A stretch of DNA of 64,000 nucleotides from Sulfurimonas sp. GTDB taxonomy: Bacteria; Campylobacterota; Campylobacteria; Campylobacterales; Sulfurimonadaceae. Where the stretch lies: positions 1-64,000 of the forward strand of contig NZ_JAPHUF010000007.1 in NCBI RefSeq assembly GCF_026196735.1. Direction: 5' to 3'. Positions 930 to 28,845 of this stretch are shown piece after piece; within the stretch, counting starts at the first letter, position 1; the number at the start of each line of letters is the position of its first letter. The notes under the pieces are model-generated. The model worked only from the letters and a program-made list of their open reading frames with translations, searched no databases and was not told the DNA's origin. A program made the position numbers and the translations under genes.

Positions 930-1929
930 TTACTCTGAATTTTGCTAATACTGCTAAATGATCAGAATAACCTTTCCCTTTATGTTTTGGTATTCTAGCG
1001 CGTGAGACTTGCCATCTGAAAATTCGCTTTTTTTTAAACAAATACTCTTTATCAAAATTAGTTATGCTGTTATTTACATATGATATATCTTTTTTATTTA
1101 ACAGTGATTGAGATATAAGAATATTATCTAAAGACTCCTTTTTACCTTTATATATGTATGAGTATCTATCTTTTTCATTAGCATCATACCAAAGGTTGTA
1201 AAAATTGTTTTTTACATATTTAACTTCTGAAGCTTTTTGATTTTGTTTGAGAGTTTTTAGAACATGGTTTATCCCAGTTTTGCCATTAGTGTCATTATGT
1301 TCTCGTTTTCTTTTAAATTTTATGTGTTCTTCGTAGTGAGAATTAAAGTCTCCCAGAAGTATGATATTTTTATCATAACCTATAGTCTCCACCCTTTTTC
1401 TAAGGGCTTTTGCAGAGACTATCCTCATACTTTCAGGTCCGGCTTTTGATTTCCAGTGGTTTATAAATAAATATAAGTCTTTGTTATTAATTTTGAATTT
1501 TGATTCTAATATATTTCTATATTTGTATGATGAAGTAACAGCTAGCTCTTTTGAATATACAAATGGAATTTTACTAAGAAAAGCTACTTTAATTGCTGTA
1601 TCTTTTTTATCTGCAATAGAATAATACTGATAATACAAGCCTTTTTGCTTAAGTGCAAATCTTAAATCTTTTAATGCTTTAAGTGAATGTATCTCTTGCA
1701 GTGCAATAATATCCGCATCTATATCTTTAATGACTCGTGAAAGATTCTCTAGTTTAATTTTATAGTTTTTTTTATTCCAAAGAGATTTACCATTTGCTTT
1801 ATACTCTTTATATTTATAACCATTTTTTTCTAAATCAAAAAGATTTTCTACATTATATGTTGCTATTTTCAAAATTGTATCTCCATAAGCAAAAGTCATA
1901 AATAAAAATAAAAGAGTAAATATTTTCAC
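922..1929 (-). CDS. Exported endonuclease/exonuclease/phosphatase family protein
   Basis: This is a 335-residue member of the DNase I-like metal-dependent phosphoesterase fold. Visible motifs are YNVENLFD (about residue 25), IIALQEI (about 75), LLGDFNSHYEE (about 192) and SDHLAV near the C-terminus. These supply the metal-binding Glu/Asp and catalytic His/Asp residues. A hydrophobic N-terminus ending in AYG looks like a signal peptide, so it probably acts in the periplasm. The start is GTG, and its first G is shared with the TAG stop of the upstream peptidase gene, so the two are translationally coupled. The substrate (nucleic acid, inositol phosphate or lipid) cannot be told from sequence. 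Confidence 0.85.
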   Translation of the reverse strand: MKIFTLLFLFMTFAYGDTILKIATYNVENLFDLEKNGYKYKEYKANGKSLWNKKNYKIKLENLSRVIKDIDADIIALQEIHSLKALKDLRFALKQKGLYYQYYSIADKKDTAIKVAFLSKIPFVYSKELAVTSSYKYRNILESKFKINNKDLYLFINHWKSKAGPESMRIVSAKALRKRVETIGYDKNIILLGDFNSHYEEHIKFKRKREHNDTNGKTGINHVLKTLKQNQKASEVKYVKNNFYNLWYDANEKDRYSYIYKGKKESLDNILISQSLLNKKDISYVNNSITNFDKEYLFKKKRIFRWQVSRARIPKHKGKGYSDHLAVLAKFRVTN

Positions 1930-3878
1930 TATTGAATACCGTTTAATCTAAGTAAACTATCAGGATTAGGCTCCCTTCCAATTAGCTCTTTAAAAAGTTC
2001 ACTCATGCTTTTAGCTCCACCACCATTTAAAACTACATGTAAATATTTTTTTGCGGTATCTGAGTTAAATATTCCCTCATCAACTACATTAAAAAAAGCA
2101 TCTGCGCTTAATACTTCTGCCCATTTATAACTGTAATAACCTGCTGCATAGCCACCGGCAAATATATGTGCAAATCCATTTTGAAATTTGTTATAGCTTG
2201 GTGTTTTGATTAGTGCTGTGTCTTTTCTAATGCTATCAAGTAACTCTTGAACTTCGTCACCTTGATATACCTTGGTATGAAGTTTAAAATCAAATATTGA
2301 AAACTCAAGCTGTCTTAACATTGCTGAAGCAGACATAAAATTTTTACTTCGCACAAGTTTATCAATCATATCATCTGAAATAGTTTCTCCTGTTTTATAA
2401 TGGGTTGCAAATAATTTTAAAACACTCGGCTCATAAGCAAAATTTTCCAAAAACTGAGATGGAAATTCAACCGCATCCCACTCAACTCCATTAACGCCGC
2501 TGACTTCATTTTCGTTAACTGTGCTTAACATATGATGTATAGCATGGCCCATTTCATGAAAGAGTGTAACAACATCATCATGTCTGAGTAAAGATGGATT
2601 ATTTTGACTTGAAGGAGGAAAGTTACACACAATAAATGCTGAGGCTAACTGCTCAACACCATTTTCATCTGTGCAGTGAGTTTGAAAACTATCCATCCAT
2701 GCGCCACCGCGTTTACTTTCTCTTGCTTGCAAGTCTAAGTAAAGTCTAGCCCTAAGTTTATTATCTACATGTAGGTTATATGAGAATGCTTTTTCATCCC
2801 ATAATTTTTCATCAACCTTTTCAAATTTAATGCCAAATAGTTTGTTTAAAAAGTCAAACATTCCATTTACTACGCTGTTTTGTTCAAAATATGGTCTATA
2901 TAGCTCTTCATCTAGGTCATACTTCTCTTTTTTTAGAAGCTCACTATAATAAGCTGTGTCAAAACTCTCTAAGGGCTTATCTGCTATATCTTGAAGCTCT
3001 TTGATTTCCTTTTTTGCTTGAGTTTTTGAGTTTTCAACCAATGTTTCTAGAAAATTAAGTACATCACTCTCTTTTTTTGCCATCTTGCTTGCTATGGAAT
3101 ACTCAGCGTAGCTTTTAAATCCTAAAAGTTTACTCATCTCATTTTTAAGTAGTAACAGTTCATCAATTATACTAGCATTTTCAGGTGCTCTTGTAACATA
3201 AGCACGGTAAAGTTCTTCTCTAATTTTAGGATTTTTACCATAAGTCATATAGGCTATATATGAGGGCATTTGAAGAGTAAATTTATATTTTTCTACTCCA
3301 TCTTCTTCATATTTTGCATTTTGTAAATCACTCTGTGGTATGCCATCTACATCTTTTTTATCTGTGATTATATACTGATAAGCATTTGTCGCATCAAGAA
3401 GGTTTTGTGAGAAGTTATTTGATAGCTCACTCTTTTTTATATTAATTTCTTGAAGCCTCTGCTTAGTTTTCTCATCTAAGTGGGCACCGCTTAACTCAAA
3501 GTGCAAAATATTTAGATCTAAAACTCTGTTTTGCTCATAATTAAGAGTGCTTTTTTCTTTAGTTTGTATCTCTTTATAAGCTTTGTATATATCAATATTT
3601 TGAGATAGTGTTGTAGAGTATTCAGTGATAATTGGTAATGATTCAGCATATATCTCTTGTGTTTTATCAGAGTTATTTACTGAATTAAGGTGTGACATAG
3701 GGGTGAAAAACTGCTCTAAGCGCTCATCCATCATCTCTAAAGGCTTAACAAAGTTAGAAAAAGTTTTATCTTTTTTTTGTAGTAATTCATCGATTTTTTT
3801 ATTGTTATTTTCAACTCTTTTTTTTAATTCTTTTATAAAATTATCTAAATCAACTTTAAACTCTAAAAATTTTGACAT
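1929..3878 (-). CDS. M3 family oligopeptidase (oligopeptidase A-like)
   Basis: This is a cytoplasmic zinc metallopeptidase that degrades short peptides. The zinc site HEMGHAIHH begins at His441, and a downstream Glu-rich helix (WDAVEFPSQFLENF) supplies the third ligand, as in thimet oligopeptidase and PrlC. Its 649 residues are normal for the family and no signal peptide is visible. It is the third gene of a leftward run, 15 bases after a trypsin-like protease gene and coupled to the next gene by a one-base overlap. Two proteases in one run suggests shared peptide turnover, but that is inference. Confidence 0.93.
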   Translation of the reverse strand: MSKFLEFKVDLDNFIKELKKRVENNNKKIDELLQKKDKTFSNFVKPLEMMDERLEQFFTPMSHLNSVNNSDKTQEIYAESLPIITEYSTTLSQNIDIYKAYKEIQTKEKSTLNYEQNRVLDLNILHFELSGAHLDEKTKQRLQEINIKKSELSNNFSQNLLDATNAYQYIITDKKDVDGIPQSDLQNAKYEEDGVEKYKFTLQMPSYIAYMTYGKNPKIREELYRAYVTRAPENASIIDELLLLKNEMSKLLGFKSYAEYSIASKMAKKESDVLNFLETLVENSKTQAKKEIKELQDIADKPLESFDTAYYSELLKKEKYDLDEELYRPYFEQNSVVNGMFDFLNKLFGIKFEKVDEKLWDEKAFSYNLHVDNKLRARLYLDLQARESKRGGAWMDSFQTHCTDENGVEQLASAFIVCNFPPSSQNNPSLLRHDDVVTLFHEMGHAIHHMLSTVNENEVSGVNGVEWDAVEFPSQFLENFAYEPSVLKLFATHYKTGETISDDMIDKLVRSKNFMSASAMLRQLEFSIFDFKLHTKVYQGDEVQELLDSIRKDTALIKTPSYNKFQNGFAHIFAGGYAAGYYSYKWAEVLSADAFFNVVDEGIFNSDTAKKYLHVVLNGGGAKSMSELFKELIGREPNPDSLLRLNGIQ

Positions 3879-3893
3879 GTATATATTTCCTTT

Positions 3894-4988
3894 TTAATTA
3901 TCTTCATCGCGTTTTTGTTTTATAGCATTAAATTTGTTAATCAATATATCATCATACTTGTCTGAGTTTTTAAAGAGTCTTTCAAATGCAACTTTTCCCT
4001 CTTCTAGCGTCAGTGAAGAATCAACAATCAAATAAGATATATATATTATATTTTCATTGATTGAGAATTTTAAATAAGACAATTTTTTATTTTCTTCAAG
4101 TAAGTAATCGTAAATATCTGCTATCTTTTCTTGTGGAATAGTACATAATCTAGACTCTCCTATAATTATTCCGTTGTCATAATAAGATATTTCTATTCTT
4201 GCACTCCCATAATCTACTCTCCATGACGCCTGTGATCTTCTTGCCAATGTGACATCAATATTCAAAGAGGATAAAATCTCTTCAAGCAGTTTTGTCTTTC
4301 CTATTGGATTGTAACCTTTTCTTCTTAGCTTTGCAACTTCTAGTTTAATTCCACACACAGGGCAATAGTCATTAATTATATCTTTCTCATCTATTAAATT
4401 TTTACAAGAAGAGCATTTAATAATATTTTGAATATTTTTATTTTTATAGTTTTTCAGAGCTTCATCCACATAATAATATGGAAGTGAAAAACCTAAGTTG
4501 TTTGAATCTTGGATAATAAAAGTGTTTACACCGATTACATCTCCGCTTGCATTTAAAAGTGGACCACCGCTATTACCTGGGTTTATTGCTGCATCTATCT
4601 GTATATATTCCAACTCTCCTTGGAGTCTTGAAGCTTTTGAGACTATACCCTCTGTTGCTGTATAATTAAGACCATAGGGATGACCTATGGCTATAGCCGT
4701 ATCTCCATCTTCAACCAATTGTGCTGATAGTTTTAGTGGATTCTGGGGAGCTTTAAAATCAATACTTATAAATGCTAAATCATAATATGGGTCATCATAA
4801 ACTACCTTGGCGATAGTTCTTTTTATTTTTTTTGCACTGACAACTACCTCTTTAAGTCCAGATACCACATGAGAATTTGTAACTATCAAATCATCAATAA
4901 TAAATCCGGTACCACTTCCAAAAGGTGTCATTATCTGTATGATATTTTCTATATAAGTTTCTAGTATTGCTTGAGTGTTCATCTTCAT
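3894..4988 (-). CDS. Intracellular trypsin-like serine protease with zinc ribbon and YbjN-like C-terminal domain
   Basis: Residues 1-185 form a trypsin-fold S1C-type protease with a complete triad: His40 (TNSHVV), Asp70 (YYDLAF) and Ser140 (GNSGGP). It resembles DegP/HtrA but has no signal peptide, no membrane segment and no PDZ domain, so it should be cytoplasmic. Cys192, Cys195, Cys209 and Cys212 form a CxxC...CxxC zinc ribbon. Residues about 225-364 look like a YbjN/type III chaperone-like alpha-beta domain, judged by pattern only. The start codon overlaps the stop of the upstream unknown gene in an ATGA arrangement, so the two are likely made together. The substrate is unknown. Confidence 0.82.
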   Translation of the reverse strand: MKMNTQAILETYIENIIQIMTPFGSGTGFIIDDLIVTNSHVVSGLKEVVVSAKKIKRTIAKVVYDDPYYDLAFISIDFKAPQNPLKLSAQLVEDGDTAIAIGHPYGLNYTATEGIVSKASRLQGELEYIQIDAAINPGNSGGPLLNASGDVIGVNTFIIQDSNNLGFSLPYYYVDEALKNYKNKNIQNIIKCSSCKNLIDEKDIINDYCPVCGIKLEVAKLRRKGYNPIGKTKLLEEILSSLNIDVTLARRSQASWRVDYGSARIEISYYDNGIIIGESRLCTIPQEKIADIYDYLLEENKKLSYLKFSINENIIYISYLIVDSSLTLEEGKVAFERLFKNSDKYDDILINKFNAIKQKRDEDN

Positions 4989-6298
4989 ATCTCTTCAAAG
5001 TTTAGATTTTTTAGCTGTAGATAAAAACTGTTGCTAAATTCATTAAGCGTTGTATAGTTTAATTTATCTCCAAAAGGTTTTAGCAGTTTGAAACGACTTT
5101 GATACGGAGCTATAATATCTTCTATCCTCGAGATGATAGCTCTTTTAGAAAATGATTCATTTTTTTCATTATAAAGCGTGTCATAATTCAGTGTCCTGAA
5201 AAAAACCGGATTTTGAATCTCAACTAAAATGTGGAGTAATTGTTTCATAACTGGGGTAAGACCATAGTTAAATAGGAGGTACAGTGCAATATATTCATAA
5301 ATTATAGGGATAACCTGATTATATCTATTATTTTTATACCATCTGATTTTTGCAAGTGATTCTGATATAAAAATTTCAACTTCCTCGTGTAAAGTCTTTT
5401 CGGAAGGATTAAAGGTATATTTTGCATCATAAAATTTTGTAGCAAATTTGTCAAGATTTATATCTTTTAACTCTAAAATATAAGTTTCCAACTCTTCGTT
5501 TTTTGCCTCTACAGTAGACTCTTCGTCGATAAAATACTCTTGGACCTTTATGCTTATTTTATGGTATAAGTCATATTTTGGGACTATTAGATAATCTATT
5601 TTAAAAAGAAGATGAAGAAGAGTGAATGATTTCATTGCTGCATTATCATTAGATGGGAATGTAGATATTTTATGTGCCATCTCATCAATCCATTTATGCA
5701 AAAAATCATATTTTATAGACAACTCGTTTTCATCTATTGGTTTTATATGTTCTATATCTTCGATGACAACATCAGGGAACTCATATTTTGTGAACTCTTT
5801 GTCAAAATCAGCATTGAGAGCTATTTCTCTTAATGGAAAAAATATTTTCTGCGGTGTCATCGTAATATTATTGAAAAATAGTTTTAGTTTAATATACTCA
5901 TCATCACTAAAATAGTAAGCATAAGTTAGCAGGTAGTTTCTCTCCAAAAGATATCTTTTAAGTGCAACATTCGTAGATGACTGTTTTGTGAGTATAGATT
6001 CCGCGTAAAGATGGTCTTCAGTTATGTAACCTGTGATTCTTGCGGTACCTTGAAAAATTTCATAATTTAGTCTATCGCCTTCTTTTGTTAATATAATATT
6101 GTTGTTTGATTCACCATTTGAAAAGTTTTCAAGAGATTTAAAAAAATACTCATAAGCATTTAAAATGTCTTTTTTCTCAAAAGCTTCATAGGATTTATTG
6201 AAAAGTTCTTCTTCATTTTCGCAGAGGTTTGCATTTATTCCTCTTCCAAATTGATGTTTTAATTCTGTTTTTGCTTCAAAAAAATTTAGCCAGCTCAT
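4985..6298 (-). CDS. Protein of unknown function, partner of the trypsin-like protease
   Basis: I do not recognise this 437-residue protein. It has no signal peptide, membrane segment or metal-binding cluster. Residues about 65-170 read as a compact alpha-beta unit whose pattern resembles the YbjN-like tail of the protease encoded next to it. The rest is acidic and mostly helical. It is the first gene of the leftward run, and its stop overlaps the protease start by four bases. The likely roles, substrate or adaptor/regulator of the protease, come from context only. A 177-base gap separates it from divergent pyrH. Confidence 0.75.
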   Translation of the reverse strand: MSWLNFFEAKTELKHQFGRGINANLCENEEELFNKSYEAFEKKDILNAYEYFFKSLENFSNGESNNNIILTKEGDRLNYEIFQGTARITGYITEDHLYAESILTKQSSTNVALKRYLLERNYLLTYAYYFSDDEYIKLKLFFNNITMTPQKIFFPLREIALNADFDKEFTKYEFPDVVIEDIEHIKPIDENELSIKYDFLHKWIDEMAHKISTFPSNDNAAMKSFTLLHLLFKIDYLIVPKYDLYHKISIKVQEYFIDEESTVEAKNEELETYILELKDINLDKFATKFYDAKYTFNPSEKTLHEEVEIFISESLAKIRWYKNNRYNQVIPIIYEYIALYLLFNYGLTPVMKQLLHILVEIQNPVFFRTLNYDTLYNEKNESFSKRAIISRIEDIIAPYQSRFKLLKPFGDKLNYTTLNEFSNSFYLQLKNLNFEEI

Positions 6299-6444
6299 AA
6301 ATTCACTTTGTATATAGTTTATTGATTTTTATTATTATAATTAAATCACCCTTATAAAAAGCAATTTTAGCTTTATTCATATTTTGAAATCTACATGTCA
6401 AGATAGATATAAATTTTCAAAGCAAAACAAAAGACAATTTTAAG

Positions 6445-6450
6445 TATAAT
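6445..6450 (+). promoter_or_regulatory. Probable -10 box for pyrH
   Basis: TATAAT stands 26 bases before the pyrH ATG, after a run of alternating A and T tracts. The transcript should start near 6457. An AAGGA ribosome site is at 6466-6470. Confidence 0.6.
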
Positions 6451-6463
6451 TCGCGGATTATGA

Positions 6464-7186
<723 letters not shown>

Positions 7187-24663: not shown

Positions 24664-25107
24664 CTAACTCAATAGTGTTTTAACGCACTCGTTTATTCTT
24701 TTGCCGTCAGCTTTTCCTGCTAACTCTTTAGAAGCCACTCCCATGACTTTTCCCATATCTTTTATAGTAGATGCTCCAGTTTTAGAGATAATCTCTTGTA
24801 GCGCAGACGAAAGTTCATCATCGCTAAGTTGAACAGGTAAATATGGAGTATATATAGCAATTTCATCAAGTTCTATCTGCATCAAATCATCACGGCCTGC
24901 ATCTTTGTACTGAGTTGCAGCATCATTTCTTCTTTTGACCTGAGTCTGAATAATTTTAATAAGATCATCATCAGTCAGTTCTTTTCTCTCATCAACCTCT
25001 ATCTGCTTAAAAGCACTTGTGAGAAGCCTTAAAGCATCCCTTGTTTTTGTATCTTTAGCTTTCATAGCATTTTTTACATCTTGGTTTATTGTTTCGCGTA
25101 AGTTCAT
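24664..25107 (-). CDS. GatB/YqeY domain protein
   Basis: This 147-residue protein is of the YqeY type, equivalent to the tRNA-binding tail domain of GatB. Conserved stretches are DVKNAMKAKDTKTRDALRLL, IIQTQVKRRNDAATQYKDAG and the C-terminal DMGKVMGVASKELAGKADG. Family members are thought to bind tRNA, but a defined reaction is not known. It stands alone, convergent with trpC and divergent from flgH. Confidence 0.92.
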   Translation of the reverse strand: MNLRETINQDVKNAMKAKDTKTRDALRLLTSAFKQIEVDERKELTDDDLIKIIQTQVKRRNDAATQYKDAGRDDLMQIELDEIAIYTPYLPVQLSDDELSSALQEIISKTGASTIKDMGKVMGVASKELAGKADGKRINECVKTLLS

Positions 25108-25124: not shown

Positions 25125-25143
25125 TTTGGAACTATTATTGCTA
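25125..25143 (+). promoter_or_regulatory. Sigma-54 (RpoN) promoter for flgH
   Basis: TTTGGAAC (25125-25132) and TTGCT (25138-25142) form the epsilonproteobacterial RpoN consensus GGAA-N6-TTGC. The GG and GC doublets are separated by the required ten bases. The transcript would start near 25153, 30 bases before the flgH ATG. Flagellar rod, ring and hook genes in this phylum are known RpoN targets controlled by FlgSR, which supports the call. Confidence 0.85.
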
Positions 25144-25182
25144 GCATTATAACTAATATATCTAAATCCTGAAGAGATAATA

Positions 25183-25902
25183 ATGAAACAACTTTTAATT
25201 TTGACAATTTCCTTTTGTACTATACTTTTTTTATCTGGGTGCACAGCAAACTTAACAGATCCTGAGATTAATTTTGAACCACCGGCATATGTTGAGCAGA
25301 TGCCATCAAAAGATGACAAGCAGGATTTTGCATCTATTGGCAGTATATTTGGACAAGGTGACAATCCTCTCTTTTCAGATCATAAAGCTATGCATGTAAA
25401 TGATATTGTCACAGTTGTTATTGCTGAAAATGCTCAAAGTTCTAGTAGCGGAAGCAAGAGTCTTAGTGAAAGCGATAAAATTGACTTTTTGGGTGGCGGC
25501 TTTGGCTCGACAGGTAATAGTGCAGCAATCAACTCAGCTTTAAAAAGTGCAAATAATGTAGCAGGTGTTAGTTTTGGAATGGAAAACGGCAGTGATTATT
25601 CAGGGCAGGGCAGCGCTACAAAAGATGCATCTTTTACAACTACAGTATCTGCTAGAATAGTAAAGGTAATGCAAAATGGAAACTACTTTATTGCCGGTAA
25701 AAGAGAGATATTAATAGATAATCAAAAACAAATCATACAAATTGGCGGTGTTATTCGCCCATATGATATAGATCAAAACAATAGAATAAGTTCTGCTAAG
25801 ATGAGCGAAGCAAAAATTCTTTATCAAACACAAGGAGATGTTGACCGTGCAACACAACAAGGTTGGGGAAGTAAAATTATTCAAGCAGCTTGGCCATTTT
25901 AG
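25183..25902 (+). CDS. flgH: Flagellar L-ring protein FlgH
   Basis: FlgH is the outer-membrane lipoprotein that forms the L-ring around the flagellar rod. The signal peptide ends in the lipobox LSGC (Cys20). The conserved domain includes GDNPLFSDHKAMHVNDIVTV near residue 65, the Ser/Gly-rich KSLSESDKID region, and the C-terminal GNYFIAGKREILIDNQKQ and VIRPYDIDQNN segments. Its 239 residues are normal. FlgI is not adjacent, unlike in enterobacteria. The 3' end contains the start and ribosome site of the next gene. Confidence 0.96.
   Translation: MKQLLILTISFCTILFLSGCTANLTDPEINFEPPAYVEQMPSKDDKQDFASIGSIFGQGDNPLFSDHKAMHVNDIVTVVIAENAQSSSSGSKSLSESDKIDFLGGGFGSTGNSAAINSALKSANNVAGVSFGMENGSDYSGQGSATKDASFTTTVSARIVKVMQNGNYFIAGKREILIDNQKQIIQIGGVIRPYDIDQNNRISSAKMSEAKILYQTQGDVDRATQQGWGSKIIQAAWPF
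25832..25837 (+). promoter_or_regulatory. Ribosome-binding site inside flgH that sets the next gene's start
   Basis: AAGGAG lies within the flgH coding sequence, nine bases before an in-frame GTG at 25847. An ATG directly touching this site at 25838 has no usable spacing, so GTG is the likelier start. Confidence 0.65.
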
Positions 25903-27307
25903 TTTAGCTCTAATCTTATGCATCTCTACACTTAATGCAGGAAGTTTTGAGGATTTTAAAAGATCTCAATCGGAGTCTTTTACTAAATTTCAAGATGAAA
26001 GAGACAATACTTTCAACACATATTTGCAAGAGCAGTTTAAGGCATATAGTGCACACTCAGAAATGCCACTATATGAAAAGCCAAAACCAAAAAACATTAC
26101 TCCGGCAATGCAAAAACAAACAAAGCCGGTCGGTCCCAAGATTTCAATAAAAATTGCAGAAGTTATAAAGCCTACTCCAATTGATAAGCCTGTTGAAGTT
26201 AAAGAAGCGGAACAAAAAAAAGATATCAATTTTGATTTTTATGGTTCAAATATTGGGTTTAATATTCCTCATAAAATTAAACAAGCTAACTTTTATCCTC
26301 AAAATCAAAAAGGAATATCTAACTTTTTTAGTAGTGCTGCATCAAGTGAATATAGTTATTTAATCCAAGATATAAAGCAAGTTTCAAAGTCAATGAATTT
26401 AAATGATTGGGGTGTTTATCAACTTGTTTTACAAATATCAAATAAAGTATATAAAAATCAGGACAATTCTAGACTTCTTAGTTGGTTTATATTTAACAAA
26501 TTGGGTTATGCAGTTAAGGTAGGGCTGGTTAAAAAGCATGTTGTACTGATGCATTACTCAAAAAAGACAATATATTCAACGCCAAATTATAGTTTTGATG
26601 ATAAAAAGTACTATGTTATCGCTGATTATGCAAAAGAAAGTACAAAAAGACTTTTTTCCTACAAGCAAGATTATCCAGGTTCAACTAAGCCGCTTGATTT
26701 ATCATTAAAAACACTCCCTCTGTTTGCATCCGATATAGACAGAAAAACTCTTAAATTTACCCAATTTGGAAATAGTTACAGTATCGCGTATGAATACAAC
26801 AAAAACCTCATAGAGTTTATGGCTACATACCCGCAAGCAGATTATGAAACATTTTTCAATGCTCCTCTTGATAGTATGACTTATCAGTCAATTGCATCAG
26901 CACTCAAAAAAGAGATTGATGGTAAAAAAGCAAGTGAAGCTATGAATTTTGTGTTAAGTTTTGTGCAAAAATCTTTTAAATACGAGGTTGACAATATACA
27001 GTTTGGCAGAGAAAAAGTCATGTTTGCGCAAGAGACTCTTTATTATGATAAATCAGACTGTGAAGATAGAGCAGTGCTTTATGCATACCTGATTAAAGAG
27101 TTATTTCATGTTCCTGTTGTTGGTGTTAAATACAAAGATCACATGGCAACAGCACTATATGTACCTATGGAAGGTGATAGTGTAAAAAAAGGAAGAAGAA
27201 AGTTTGTTATAGCAGATCCAACATATATGAATGCAAGTATCGGTATGAGCATGTCAAAGTATAAAGCTATAAAACCCGAGAGTTATATAGTCGTAAAGAG
27301 TAATTAG
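25847..27307 (+). CDS. Periplasmic transglutaminase-like protein coupled to flgH
   Basis: I infer a transglutaminase-like cysteine peptidase fold from SDCEDRAVLYAYLIKE (catalytic Cys region, about residue 405), then YKDHMATALYVP (His) and VIADPTYMNASIG (Asp), the usual Cys-His-Asp order. An N-terminal hydrophobic segment ending LNA reads as a signal peptide, so it is exported. A Pro/Lys-rich linker follows, and the middle (about 150-380) is unassigned. With the GTG start at 25847 the protein is 486 residues and overlaps flgH by 56 bases. Sharing the RpoN transcript suggests a flagellar or wall-opening role, which is inference. Confidence 0.75.
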   Translation: MQHNKVGEVKLFKQLGHFSLALILCISTLNAGSFEDFKRSQSESFTKFQDERDNTFNTYLQEQFKAYSAHSEMPLYEKPKPKNITPAMQKQTKPVGPKISIKIAEVIKPTPIDKPVEVKEAEQKKDINFDFYGSNIGFNIPHKIKQANFYPQNQKGISNFFSSAASSEYSYLIQDIKQVSKSMNLNDWGVYQLVLQISNKVYKNQDNSRLLSWFIFNKLGYAVKVGLVKKHVVLMHYSKKTIYSTPNYSFDDKKYYVIADYAKESTKRLFSYKQDYPGSTKPLDLSLKTLPLFASDIDRKTLKFTQFGNSYSIAYEYNKNLIEFMATYPQADYETFFNAPLDSMTYQSIASALKKEIDGKKASEAMNFVLSFVQKSFKYEVDNIQFGREKVMFAQETLYYDKSDCEDRAVLYAYLIKELFHVPVVGVKYKDHMATALYVPMEGDSVKKGRRKFVIADPTYMNASIGMSMSKYKAIKPESYIVVKSN

Positions 27308-28845
27308 TAGTTGTAAGCAACTTTATAGGTTGGATCATCCTCTTCATTGTGTGCACAGTGTGGACCAGCCTGTTTAAGTAGTGCTTTACAATCAGCCGAT
27401 AGATGGCGAAGAAGCAGGTTTTTACCGGCATCTTCATACTTTTTAGTGATAGCATCAATGGCTTCTACACCTGAACTGTCCATAACCCTTGCATTTTTAA
27501 AATCTATAACAACTTTTGGAGAGTCATTTGCTATATCGAAGTTGTCTCCAAATGTAGTAGCTGATCCAAAAAATAGAGGACCATCAAGCTCATAAACTTG
27601 AGTTCCATCTGCTTCTGCATATACTCTTGCTGTTATTCTTGCATGTTTCCAAGCAAAAGCAAGAGCCGATATGATTACACCTGCAATAACTGCAACTGCT
27701 AAATCCTCTACAACTGTAATAACAGTCACTGCAACCATGACAAAGGCATCTGTTCTTGGCATACGACTTATGCGCGAGAAGCTAGACCACTCAAATGTAC
27801 CGATACTTACCATAAACATTATTCCAACTAAAACAGCTACAGGTATAGCGTTTAAAACATTTGACATTGATACAACGAGGATGATAAGTCCAATAGCCGC
27901 GACAAATGATGAAAGTCTTCCGATGCCGCCTGATGTATAGTTAATGATACTTTGACCAATCATAGCACAACCTGCCATGCCACCAAAGAAACCACAAGTA
28001 ATGTTTCCAGTTCCTTGTGCTATACACTCTTTGTTTGCTGAACCACGAGTGTTACTAATCTCATCTAAAACACTAAGAGTAAGAAGTGATTCGATAATGC
28101 CCACAAGAGCTACAATGACTGCATAAGGAAGAACCATGATGATAGCATCCATGCTAAATATATATTCTGGGATTTCAAAGCTTGGGAGTTGTCCTGCATA
28201 TTTACTCATGTCATCAAGACCACCAAGTAAAAGAGTCTCAGCCTTTGTAAAATATACTCCAAGAGTTATAACAATTATAGCCACAAGTCCGGCAGGGATA
28301 GCTTTTGTTACTTTTGGAAGCAGATACATAATAGCCATAGTAACAAATGCTAAAACATACATCATGTAGCCTTGCCCTTCAAAAAATTTAAACTGTGAAG
28401 TAGCTATGACTATGGCAAGACCATTTACAAAACCGTGAATAGCAGGAGTTGGAACAAGGCGGATAAATTTACCAAGTTTTAAAAAACCAATAGATATTTG
28501 AATAAGACCGGCTACAACAGTTGCAAGAAGTATGTAGTGAAGCACGCCCATTGCAATGGCTTCTCTGTCTGCACCTTGCGCTTCTAGCAGAGCAGTAGCT
28601 TCAATCCCTAAACCTACAAAAACTATAGCAACTGCACCTGTAGCACCAGAAATCATACCTGGTTTTCCACCGATAAGTGAAGTAATAAGCCCTAGTATAA
28701 ATGCAGTGTATAAACCAACAATTGGGCTCACTCCCGCTATAAAACTAAATGCTATAGCCTCAGGAACTAATGCAACTGCAACAACTAAACCAGATAAAAT
28801 GTCGTTTTTGATATTTGTTGATGAGTATTTTTTTAAATCAAACAA
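27304..28845 (-). CDS. SulP family anion transporter with STAS domain
   Basis: This is a 513-residue SLC26/SulP membrane transporter, usually for sulfate, bicarbonate or dicarboxylates. The N-terminus DILSGLVVAVALVPEAIAFS is the family signature, about a dozen hydrophobic helices follow, and a C-terminal STAS domain starts near residue 410 with VVIDFKNARVMDSSGVEAI. The substrate cannot be read from sequence; bicarbonate uptake would suit an autotroph and sulfate a sulfur oxidiser. The stop overlaps the convergent transglutaminase-like gene by four bases. Confidence 0.93.
   Translation of the reverse strand: MFDLKKYSSTNIKNDILSGLVVAVALVPEAIAFSFIAGVSPIVGLYTAFILGLITSLIGGKPGMISGATGAVAIVFVGLGIEATALLEAQGADREAIAMGVLHYILLATVVAGLIQISIGFLKLGKFIRLVPTPAIHGFVNGLAIVIATSQFKFFEGQGYMMYVLAFVTMAIMYLLPKVTKAIPAGLVAIIVITLGVYFTKAETLLLGGLDDMSKYAGQLPSFEIPEYIFSMDAIIMVLPYAVIVALVGIIESLLTLSVLDEISNTRGSANKECIAQGTGNITCGFFGGMAGCAMIGQSIINYTSGGIGRLSSFVAAIGLIILVVSMSNVLNAIPVAVLVGIMFMVSIGTFEWSSFSRISRMPRTDAFVMVAVTVITVVEDLAVAVIAGVIISALAFAWKHARITARVYAEADGTQVYELDGPLFFGSATTFGDNFDIANDSPKVVIDFKNARVMDSSGVEAIDAITKKYEDAGKNLLLRHLSADCKALLKQAGPHCAHNEEDDPTYKVAYNY

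Follow-up and report, generated by a model that had tools for sequence, protein, structure and literature searches.

Two described enzymes come closest to the one considered here. LapG, a periplasmic cysteine protease of the BTLCP family (PF06035, Peptidase_C93) with a Cys-His-Asp triad, is described as cleaving the N-terminus of the adhesin LapA and as requiring C135 (PMC3032545). HvyA of Caulobacter, also a BTLCP protein, is described as an exported transglutaminase-like cysteine protease for which C192, H226 and D241 are needed (PMC4241560). On the flagellar side, the basal disk of C. jejuni is reported to be made of FlgP, which has an Lpp20 SHS2-like fold, and PflC, a protein with a protease fold, to act as a motor scaffold (medial disk) in C. 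jejuni (PMC12222027). We analysed a window of 64,000 nucleotides from a Sulfurimonas-type genome (G000, the window lying on its contig C4), in which flgH, the gene for the flagellar L-ring lipoprotein, overlaps a second gene coding for a putative exported cysteine hydrolase, hereafter the enzyme. Judging from a conserved promoter element and a conserved start codon, flgH and the enzyme are very likely made together.

The enzyme resembles LapG in being a predicted periplasmic cysteine protease with the same triad and the same Asp-Cys-Glu-Asp sequence around the cysteine. It differs in size, 486 amino acids against about 210, with an extra module and a linker. Moreover, the PF06035 profile found no match at E<=10 in the window protein nor at E<=1 in 24 members of its family, a negative to be read knowing that the HMMER filters discard most matches above about 0.1. 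The enzyme is not the LapG orthologue, because its own genome carries four separate genes matching PF06035 over the cut-off (G000:C5:23969-24295, C11:146061-147114 with two side by side, and C12:9257-9574). HvyA differs in that it acts on capsulation, and was compared by its published description, not by alignment. Transglut_core (PF01841) and DUF553 (PF04473) have the same catalytic core and gave sub-threshold matches; the enzyme stays under both cut-offs and has a further module. FlgP and the Lpp20 lipoproteins of Campylobacterota are not homologous to the enzyme, and could at best be a partner or substrate. A transglutaminase-fold periplasmic cysteine hydrolase is known in kind; the larger, two-part form and the overlap with flgH are new, and no report of this gene pair was found in the open-access literature, where relevance was mostly judged by title. 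We know of no settled account of the way in which Campylobacterota open their wall and outer membrane, and seal them again, to accommodate their large motors. An enzyme that is conserved, and in one lineage apparently expressed along with the L ring, offers a direct candidate for this question.

The identity of flgH is firm, with 170.8 bits for PF02107 (cut-off 27) and 320.1 bits for NF001303 (cut-off 288), both passed. An RpoN (sigma-54) element, TGGAAC-N5-TTGCT, sits 56 nt 5′ of its ATG (25183). Taken alone, such a site is not significant and was rejected as evidence, since a search of the 64-kb window for TGGCACN5TTGCW with one mismatch allowed returned 2 sites for 1.85 expected by chance; what is significant is its position before flgH. 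The 80 loci retained from named records are for the most part labelled Sulfurimonas, and otherwise Sulfurimonadaceae, Sulfuricurvum, Helicobacteraceae, Campylobacterales or Campylobacterota. A site differing from TGGMAYN5TTGCW by no more than one mismatch precedes flgH at 72 of 78 loci in the Sulfurimonas set, compared to 5 of 1,560 block-shuffled upstream stretches, and at 12 of 12 loci of sister genera, compared to 0 of 240. Such a site was also present at 27 of 33 flgH loci devoid of the second gene (2 of 660 shuffled stretches). For some of the loci that failed the scan, the script had apparently picked a wrong flgH start. As the site is general before flgH in the loci sampled, whether or not the second gene follows, the second gene would share the site of flgH. 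The original prediction that an RpoN promoter drives flgH is therefore supported by the conserved placement of the element at 25127-25142, which marks the first gene of a predicted RpoN-dependent unit.

By its geometry, with a divergent gene upstream and a convergent one downstream, the sequence of flgH and the enzyme gene is that of a two-gene unit. Between 25050 and 27450 nothing resembling a terminator was found. A search for sigma-70 sites over the same interval yielded 7, for 10.4 expected by chance, and is uninformative, speaking neither for nor against a separate promoter for the second gene within flgH.

Translation of the second gene most likely begins inside flgH. Ahead of its hydrophobic stretch, the open reading frame (ORF) offers three in-frame candidates, ATG at 25838, TTG at 25841 and GTG at 25847, and the spacing from the AAGGAG at 25832-25837 fits the GTG best. 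At the position of this GTG, 69 of 78 relatives have a GTG and 4 an ATG (73 of 78 in total), compared to a start codon in 1 of 29 flgH genes without a second gene (Fisher p = 1.4e-19, not corrected for relatedness); loci whose flgH tail was unreadable, 3 of 81 and 4 of 33 respectively, were left out. In several relatives an in-frame stop lies immediately 5′ of the GTG, which is then the sole remaining start. In the sister genera, GTG was found in 8 of 12 loci, namely all 7 with overlapping genes and 1 of the 5 of genus g78, where flgH and the enzyme gene are adjacent, 42-127 nt apart, and do not overlap. A start within flgH from its own AAGGAG and GTG, as had been proposed from the letters of the window, is thus what its relatives also indicate. 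The first 18 codons of the enzyme gene overprint the 3′ end of flgH, where FlgH reads Arg-Ala with GTG and Asn-Ala or His-Ala with ATG, the FlgH Arg being changed in the 4 ATG relatives. With a start codon superimposed on a conserved stretch of FlgH, the pair is a clean example of one gene limiting the protein sequence that its neighbour can have. The position lacks a start codon in 5 of the 78 relatives, one of which has GTA. In this one (L014 / L154, genome G016), an in-frame stop stands just before the GTA, so that the start is unusual or later, or the gene untranslated.

Among 41 relatives, the enzyme gene was present in 25 genomes and FlgH in 37. Profile matches were obtained in 147 of 228 genomes of the family (FlgH in 189) and in 42 of 397 genomes of the phylum, representing 7 of 68 genera, but the tallies of 147 and 42 overcount, because they include weak matches (E 1e-6 to 1e-3) in which a different protein is hit only over its N-terminal stretch, about residues 9-155. 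Some genomes have such weak matches only, for instance G092, G325, G501 and G443. Where examined, the proteins concerned were MltC-like lytic transglycosylases, recognised with Pfam (L179:10014-11180 and L183:8118-9284) or by eye (L185:8663-9877 and L184:3101-4258). The match of their N-terminal stretches to the enzyme's (E 2e-6 to 1e-3) reflects either common descent or no more than similar helices.

Linkage was counted among the matches listed, 146 for the gene and 150 for FlgH. FlgH was matched in the same genome for 121 of the gene matches, and in 113 of these 121 the gene immediately follows flgH, on the same strand. The remaining 8 comprise a copy beside flgH that is split and contains an undetermined base (G353), three copies cut by contig ends (G564, G491, G008), a fragment (G426), and three divergent copies in another genus that are not behind flgH (G470, G460, G486). 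The flgH-linked copies belong to eight genera (g1, g18, g20, g76, g78, g80, g82, g85) of 18 sampled, all in one family. The gene order sought on the basis of the original prediction is therefore conserved within this family, and was not seen outside it.

We then consider the protein itself. C405, H432 and D457 are each invariant in 58 of 58 aligned copies. In the AlphaFold2 (AF2) model made from this 58-row alignment (mean predicted local distance difference test score, pLDDT, 85.3), C405 opens helix 405-420, H432 opens strand 432-437 and D457 comes after strand 451-456. The predicted arrangement is that of LapG and the BTLCP proteins, Cys, His and Asp in this order, with Cys at a helix start and His and Asp on or after strands. 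Both the invariance and the modelled order bear out an intact Cys-His-Asp site, as announced beforehand. Re-alignment of structures with VIA-align put LapG chains at ranks 1-4, with Z 9.8-9.1 and a root-mean-square deviation of 3.5-4.3 Å over 132-149 residues; the top chain, 4u65_E, has a truncated title that mentions a LapD complex, and chain E was taken as LapG. Streptococcus TglA, transglutaminase 2 and factor XIII followed, with Z of about 8. A profile alignment (hhalign) with 29 PF06035 relatives superposed SDCEDRA on GDCEDYA, with P 0.004-0.005 and a probability of only 7-8.5%. Searching the PDB by sequence gave no match for the protein and one chance-like match for the profile. We conclude that the C-terminal module is probably an active-looking, LapG-like cysteine hydrolase. 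Export of the product is inferred from an N-terminal hydrophobic stretch and an AxA-like end, both read by eye. Between this stretch and the modules, the model has helices at 34-44 and 51-61, and pLDDT falls below 50 at 113-122.

The first module, folded alone, reached a pLDDT of 90.5, and its best structural Z was only 4.7, graded weak by the tool. The list is headed by 3kd4, LapG, Rad4, menin, a transglutaminase and vasohibins, with two rows of another kind among the first nine. Rad4, menin and vasohibin we take to be members of the transglutaminase/papain superfamily, with inactive copies in Rad4 and menin. The first module may thus be a catalytically dead twin of the catalytic one, a weak suggestion from the model. 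An internal repeat was also looked for by sequence and rejected, the comparison of the two module profiles being without signal (probability 0.2%).

Relatives of the enzyme also occur away from flgH, and 11 such loci were examined (G031, G035, G233, G247, G375, G381, G405, G460, G470, G486, G569). In 7 of the 11 an LPP20 neighbour passes the Pfam cut-off (G031, G233, G247, G405, G470, G486, G569). G460, which was not scanned, resembles G470 by eye; G375 has no LPP20 neighbour by eye; and G381 lies on a 4-kb contig, its neighbouring genes unread. In G035, the neighbour is a CsgG-like lipoprotein just under the cut-off (19.8 vs 20.8 bits), with an SLT protein four genes upstream, and in G233 an MltC-like lytic transglycosylase sits between the LPP20 gene and the enzyme gene. 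Upstream of non-flgH copies, 13 stretches of differing lengths from 9 loci had no RpoN site with two mismatches or fewer, and one site with 3. A tree of 43 rows places the flgH-linked copies on one side of a branch with support 83/52, and 86% of 200 bootstrap trees need a single change for linkage to flgH. The gene was probably captured once by flgH, in an ancestor of the Sulfurimonas lineage, from a family mostly associated with LPP20 or CsgG-like lipoproteins, as the tree and gene context suggest; the direction of capture is only inferred, because the root was placed by midpoint. In G569, whose genome has another full-length copy as well, the LPP20-linked copy (L226, G569:C34:65000-76000, 4741-6821) is a second one; contamination of this genome is 6%, and the copy is maybe foreign.

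The explanation that we rank first, tentatively, makes the enzyme a LapG-like protease with an envelope protein as its substrate, active at the basal body on its outer-membrane side. The unit would be driven by RpoN and the enzyme translated from the GTG within flgH, hence made when the L ring is made. The product would be exported and end in the LapG-like hydrolase module, possibly preceded by a degenerate copy of the same fold. Having been recruited once from a family otherwise found mostly with LPP20 or CsgG-like lipoproteins, it would hydrolyse its envelope substrate at a peptide or amide bond, perhaps to trim a component of the L ring or basal disk, or to clear one out of its way. A narrower version, in which a flagellum-dedicated protease timed by RpoN and captured from LPP20/CsgG-like systems processes an L-ring or FlgP-type subunit, with the inactive twin as a substrate clamp, strikes us as rather improbable as a whole. 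The LPP20 neighbours outside the lineage, the Lpp20-like fold of FlgP, and an LPP20 gene of the own genome one gene away from a sigma-54 activator speak for the disk as the site of action.

Several observations weigh against a LapG-like protease serving the flagellum. In three Sulfurimonas genomes that have both FlgH and FlgI, the enzyme gene is absent (G020, 99% complete; G538, 64%; G550, 75%). This local absence is real, because another gene directly follows flgH there, and the enzyme gene is therefore not essential for carrying flgH. Conversely, relatives of the enzyme are found in genomes without FlgH and FlgI (G035, G247, G405), and such copies where flagellar rings are missing, together with the three genomes above, go against a strict flagellar role. 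In G561 (L271, G561:C1:2029579-2031126), flgH is intact and the copy behind it occupies three frames; as the following gene is also split between frames, decay and a sequencing fault are equally likely. FlgI is kept by 10 of the 13 Sulfurimonas in which FlgH found no match, so that co-loss with flagella can hardly be judged. On the structural side, Foldseek gave nothing at E<=0.001 for the full model or the first module, and ranked a putative cysteine protease of Cytophaga first (3isr, E 5.7e-3) and LapG fourth (4fgo, E 0.039). The structural Z values are barely above those of chance-like lists. The window protein scores 14.0 bits with PF01841 for a cut-off of 23 (E 0.062; best member E 3.1e-4) and E 0.0047 with PF04473, under its curated cut-off (best member E 4.3e-5).

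Loss of the gene together with flagella was considered as support and not used. Ten genomes of the genus lack both FlgH and the gene, but seven of the ten keep FlgI, so that most of these are local gaps or losses; FlgH, the gene and FlgI are all missing only in G012 (100% complete), G536 (84%) and G565 (79%).

Second comes a peptide hydrolase of peptidoglycan, opening or trimming the wall at the passage of the rod and of the P and L rings, and we judge it unlikely. The rod-binding FlgJ-like open frame of the own genome, beside flgI (G000:C6:10871-12141), is only 123 codons long and therefore has no room for a muramidase or other wall-cutting domain. The transglycosylase of G233 and the SLT protein of G035 also place wall enzymes near relatives of the gene, and transglutaminase-fold enzymes that cut pseudomurein cross-links exist (PeiW/PeiP). 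Against it, LapG cuts protein, four SLT-domain genes elsewhere in the own genome could serve, and no peptidoglycan-binding or hydrolase domain was found with Pfam (window protein and 24 members) or NCBIfam (window protein only). Peptidoglycan trimming, which the original prediction had put forward, thus finds no specific support beyond the neighbouring transglycosylases and the short FlgJ. The wider proposal of a wall or ring-assembly role, drawn from linkage to flgH, keeps the conservation of that linkage in one family; relatives elsewhere, mostly beside LPP20 or CsgG-like genes and without RpoN sites where scanned, do not favour it.

The same relatives lend some weight to a third explanation, that the enzyme belongs to LPP20/CsgG-like lipoprotein systems as a general envelope factor, hitch-hiking on the flgH transcript with no direct flagellar role. 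It agrees with the LPP20 neighbours at 7 of 11 non-flgH loci, with the 3 of 11 in genomes lacking FlgH and FlgI, and with the three genomes that have both without the enzyme. For a mere passenger, however, linkage to flgH in eight genera and a start codon overlaid on flgH exceed expectation, and we regard this explanation too as doubtful, placing it just after the wall hydrolase. A non-enzymatic scaffold or chaperone, comparable in idea to PflC of Campylobacter, is very unlikely: a protein with a protease fold is described as a motor scaffold in C. jejuni (PMC12222027) and the first module may be inactive, but a pure scaffold would hardly retain Cys, His and Asp in every aligned copy. Least probable of all is a true transglutaminase cross-linking ring or disk subunits, as transglutaminases are among the fold matches (Z of about 8) but LapG ranks first by VIA-align, even if hydrolysis and cross-linking are not distinguished chemically by these data.

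Table 1. Features of the flgH-enzyme unit and its flanking genes (window coordinates).
Feature	Position	Strand	Basis
RpoN (sigma-54) -24/-12 element, TGGAAC-TATTA-TTGCT	25127..25142	+	motif match and conserved placement before flgH
flgH, flagellar L-ring lipoprotein, 239 aa	25183..25902	+	PF02107 E=2.7e-50; NF001303 E=8.1e-96
AAGGAG ribosome-binding sequence within flgH	25832..25837	+	sequence
GTG start codon of second gene, within flgH, 56-nt overlap	25847..25849	+	start-codon conservation
Gene for putative exported LapG-like (transglutaminase-fold) cysteine hydrolase, 486 aa, stop TAG	25847..27307	+	
Putative N-terminal signal-sequence region, ~residues 1-32	25847..25942	+	by eye
Helical stretch and Pro/Lys-rich linker of variable length, ~residues 34-122	25946..26212	+	alignment and model
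First module, residues 124-300, possibly transglutaminase-like fold without catalytic residues	26216..26746	+	model
Predicted catalytic module, ~residues 319-486	26801..27304	+	AF2 model and LapG structural matches
Cys405 codon, in SDCEDR	27059..27061	+	conservation
His432 codon	27140..27142	+	conservation
Asp457 codon, in ADPT	27215..27217	+	conservation
Gene upstream of flgH, divergent	24664-25107	-	
Gene downstream of enzyme gene, convergent	27304-28845	-	

The stop of the enzyme gene and that of the convergent gene overlap by four bases (window 27304-27307), and the convergent gene is transporter-like, SulP-like by eye. Elsewhere in the own genome, a locus (L235, G000:C12:15001-23000, 2286-4374) has in a row an LPP20-family protein, a 136-aa ORF and a sigma-54 activator, FlgP/FlgR-like, in an order that we take to resemble flgP-flgQ-flgR of Campylobacter. 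Another (L234, G000:C18:7001-16000, 1268-6594) is a lipoprotein cluster with two LPP20 matches and a LpoB-like protein recognised by eye, akin to the enzyme-bearing clusters of other genomes.

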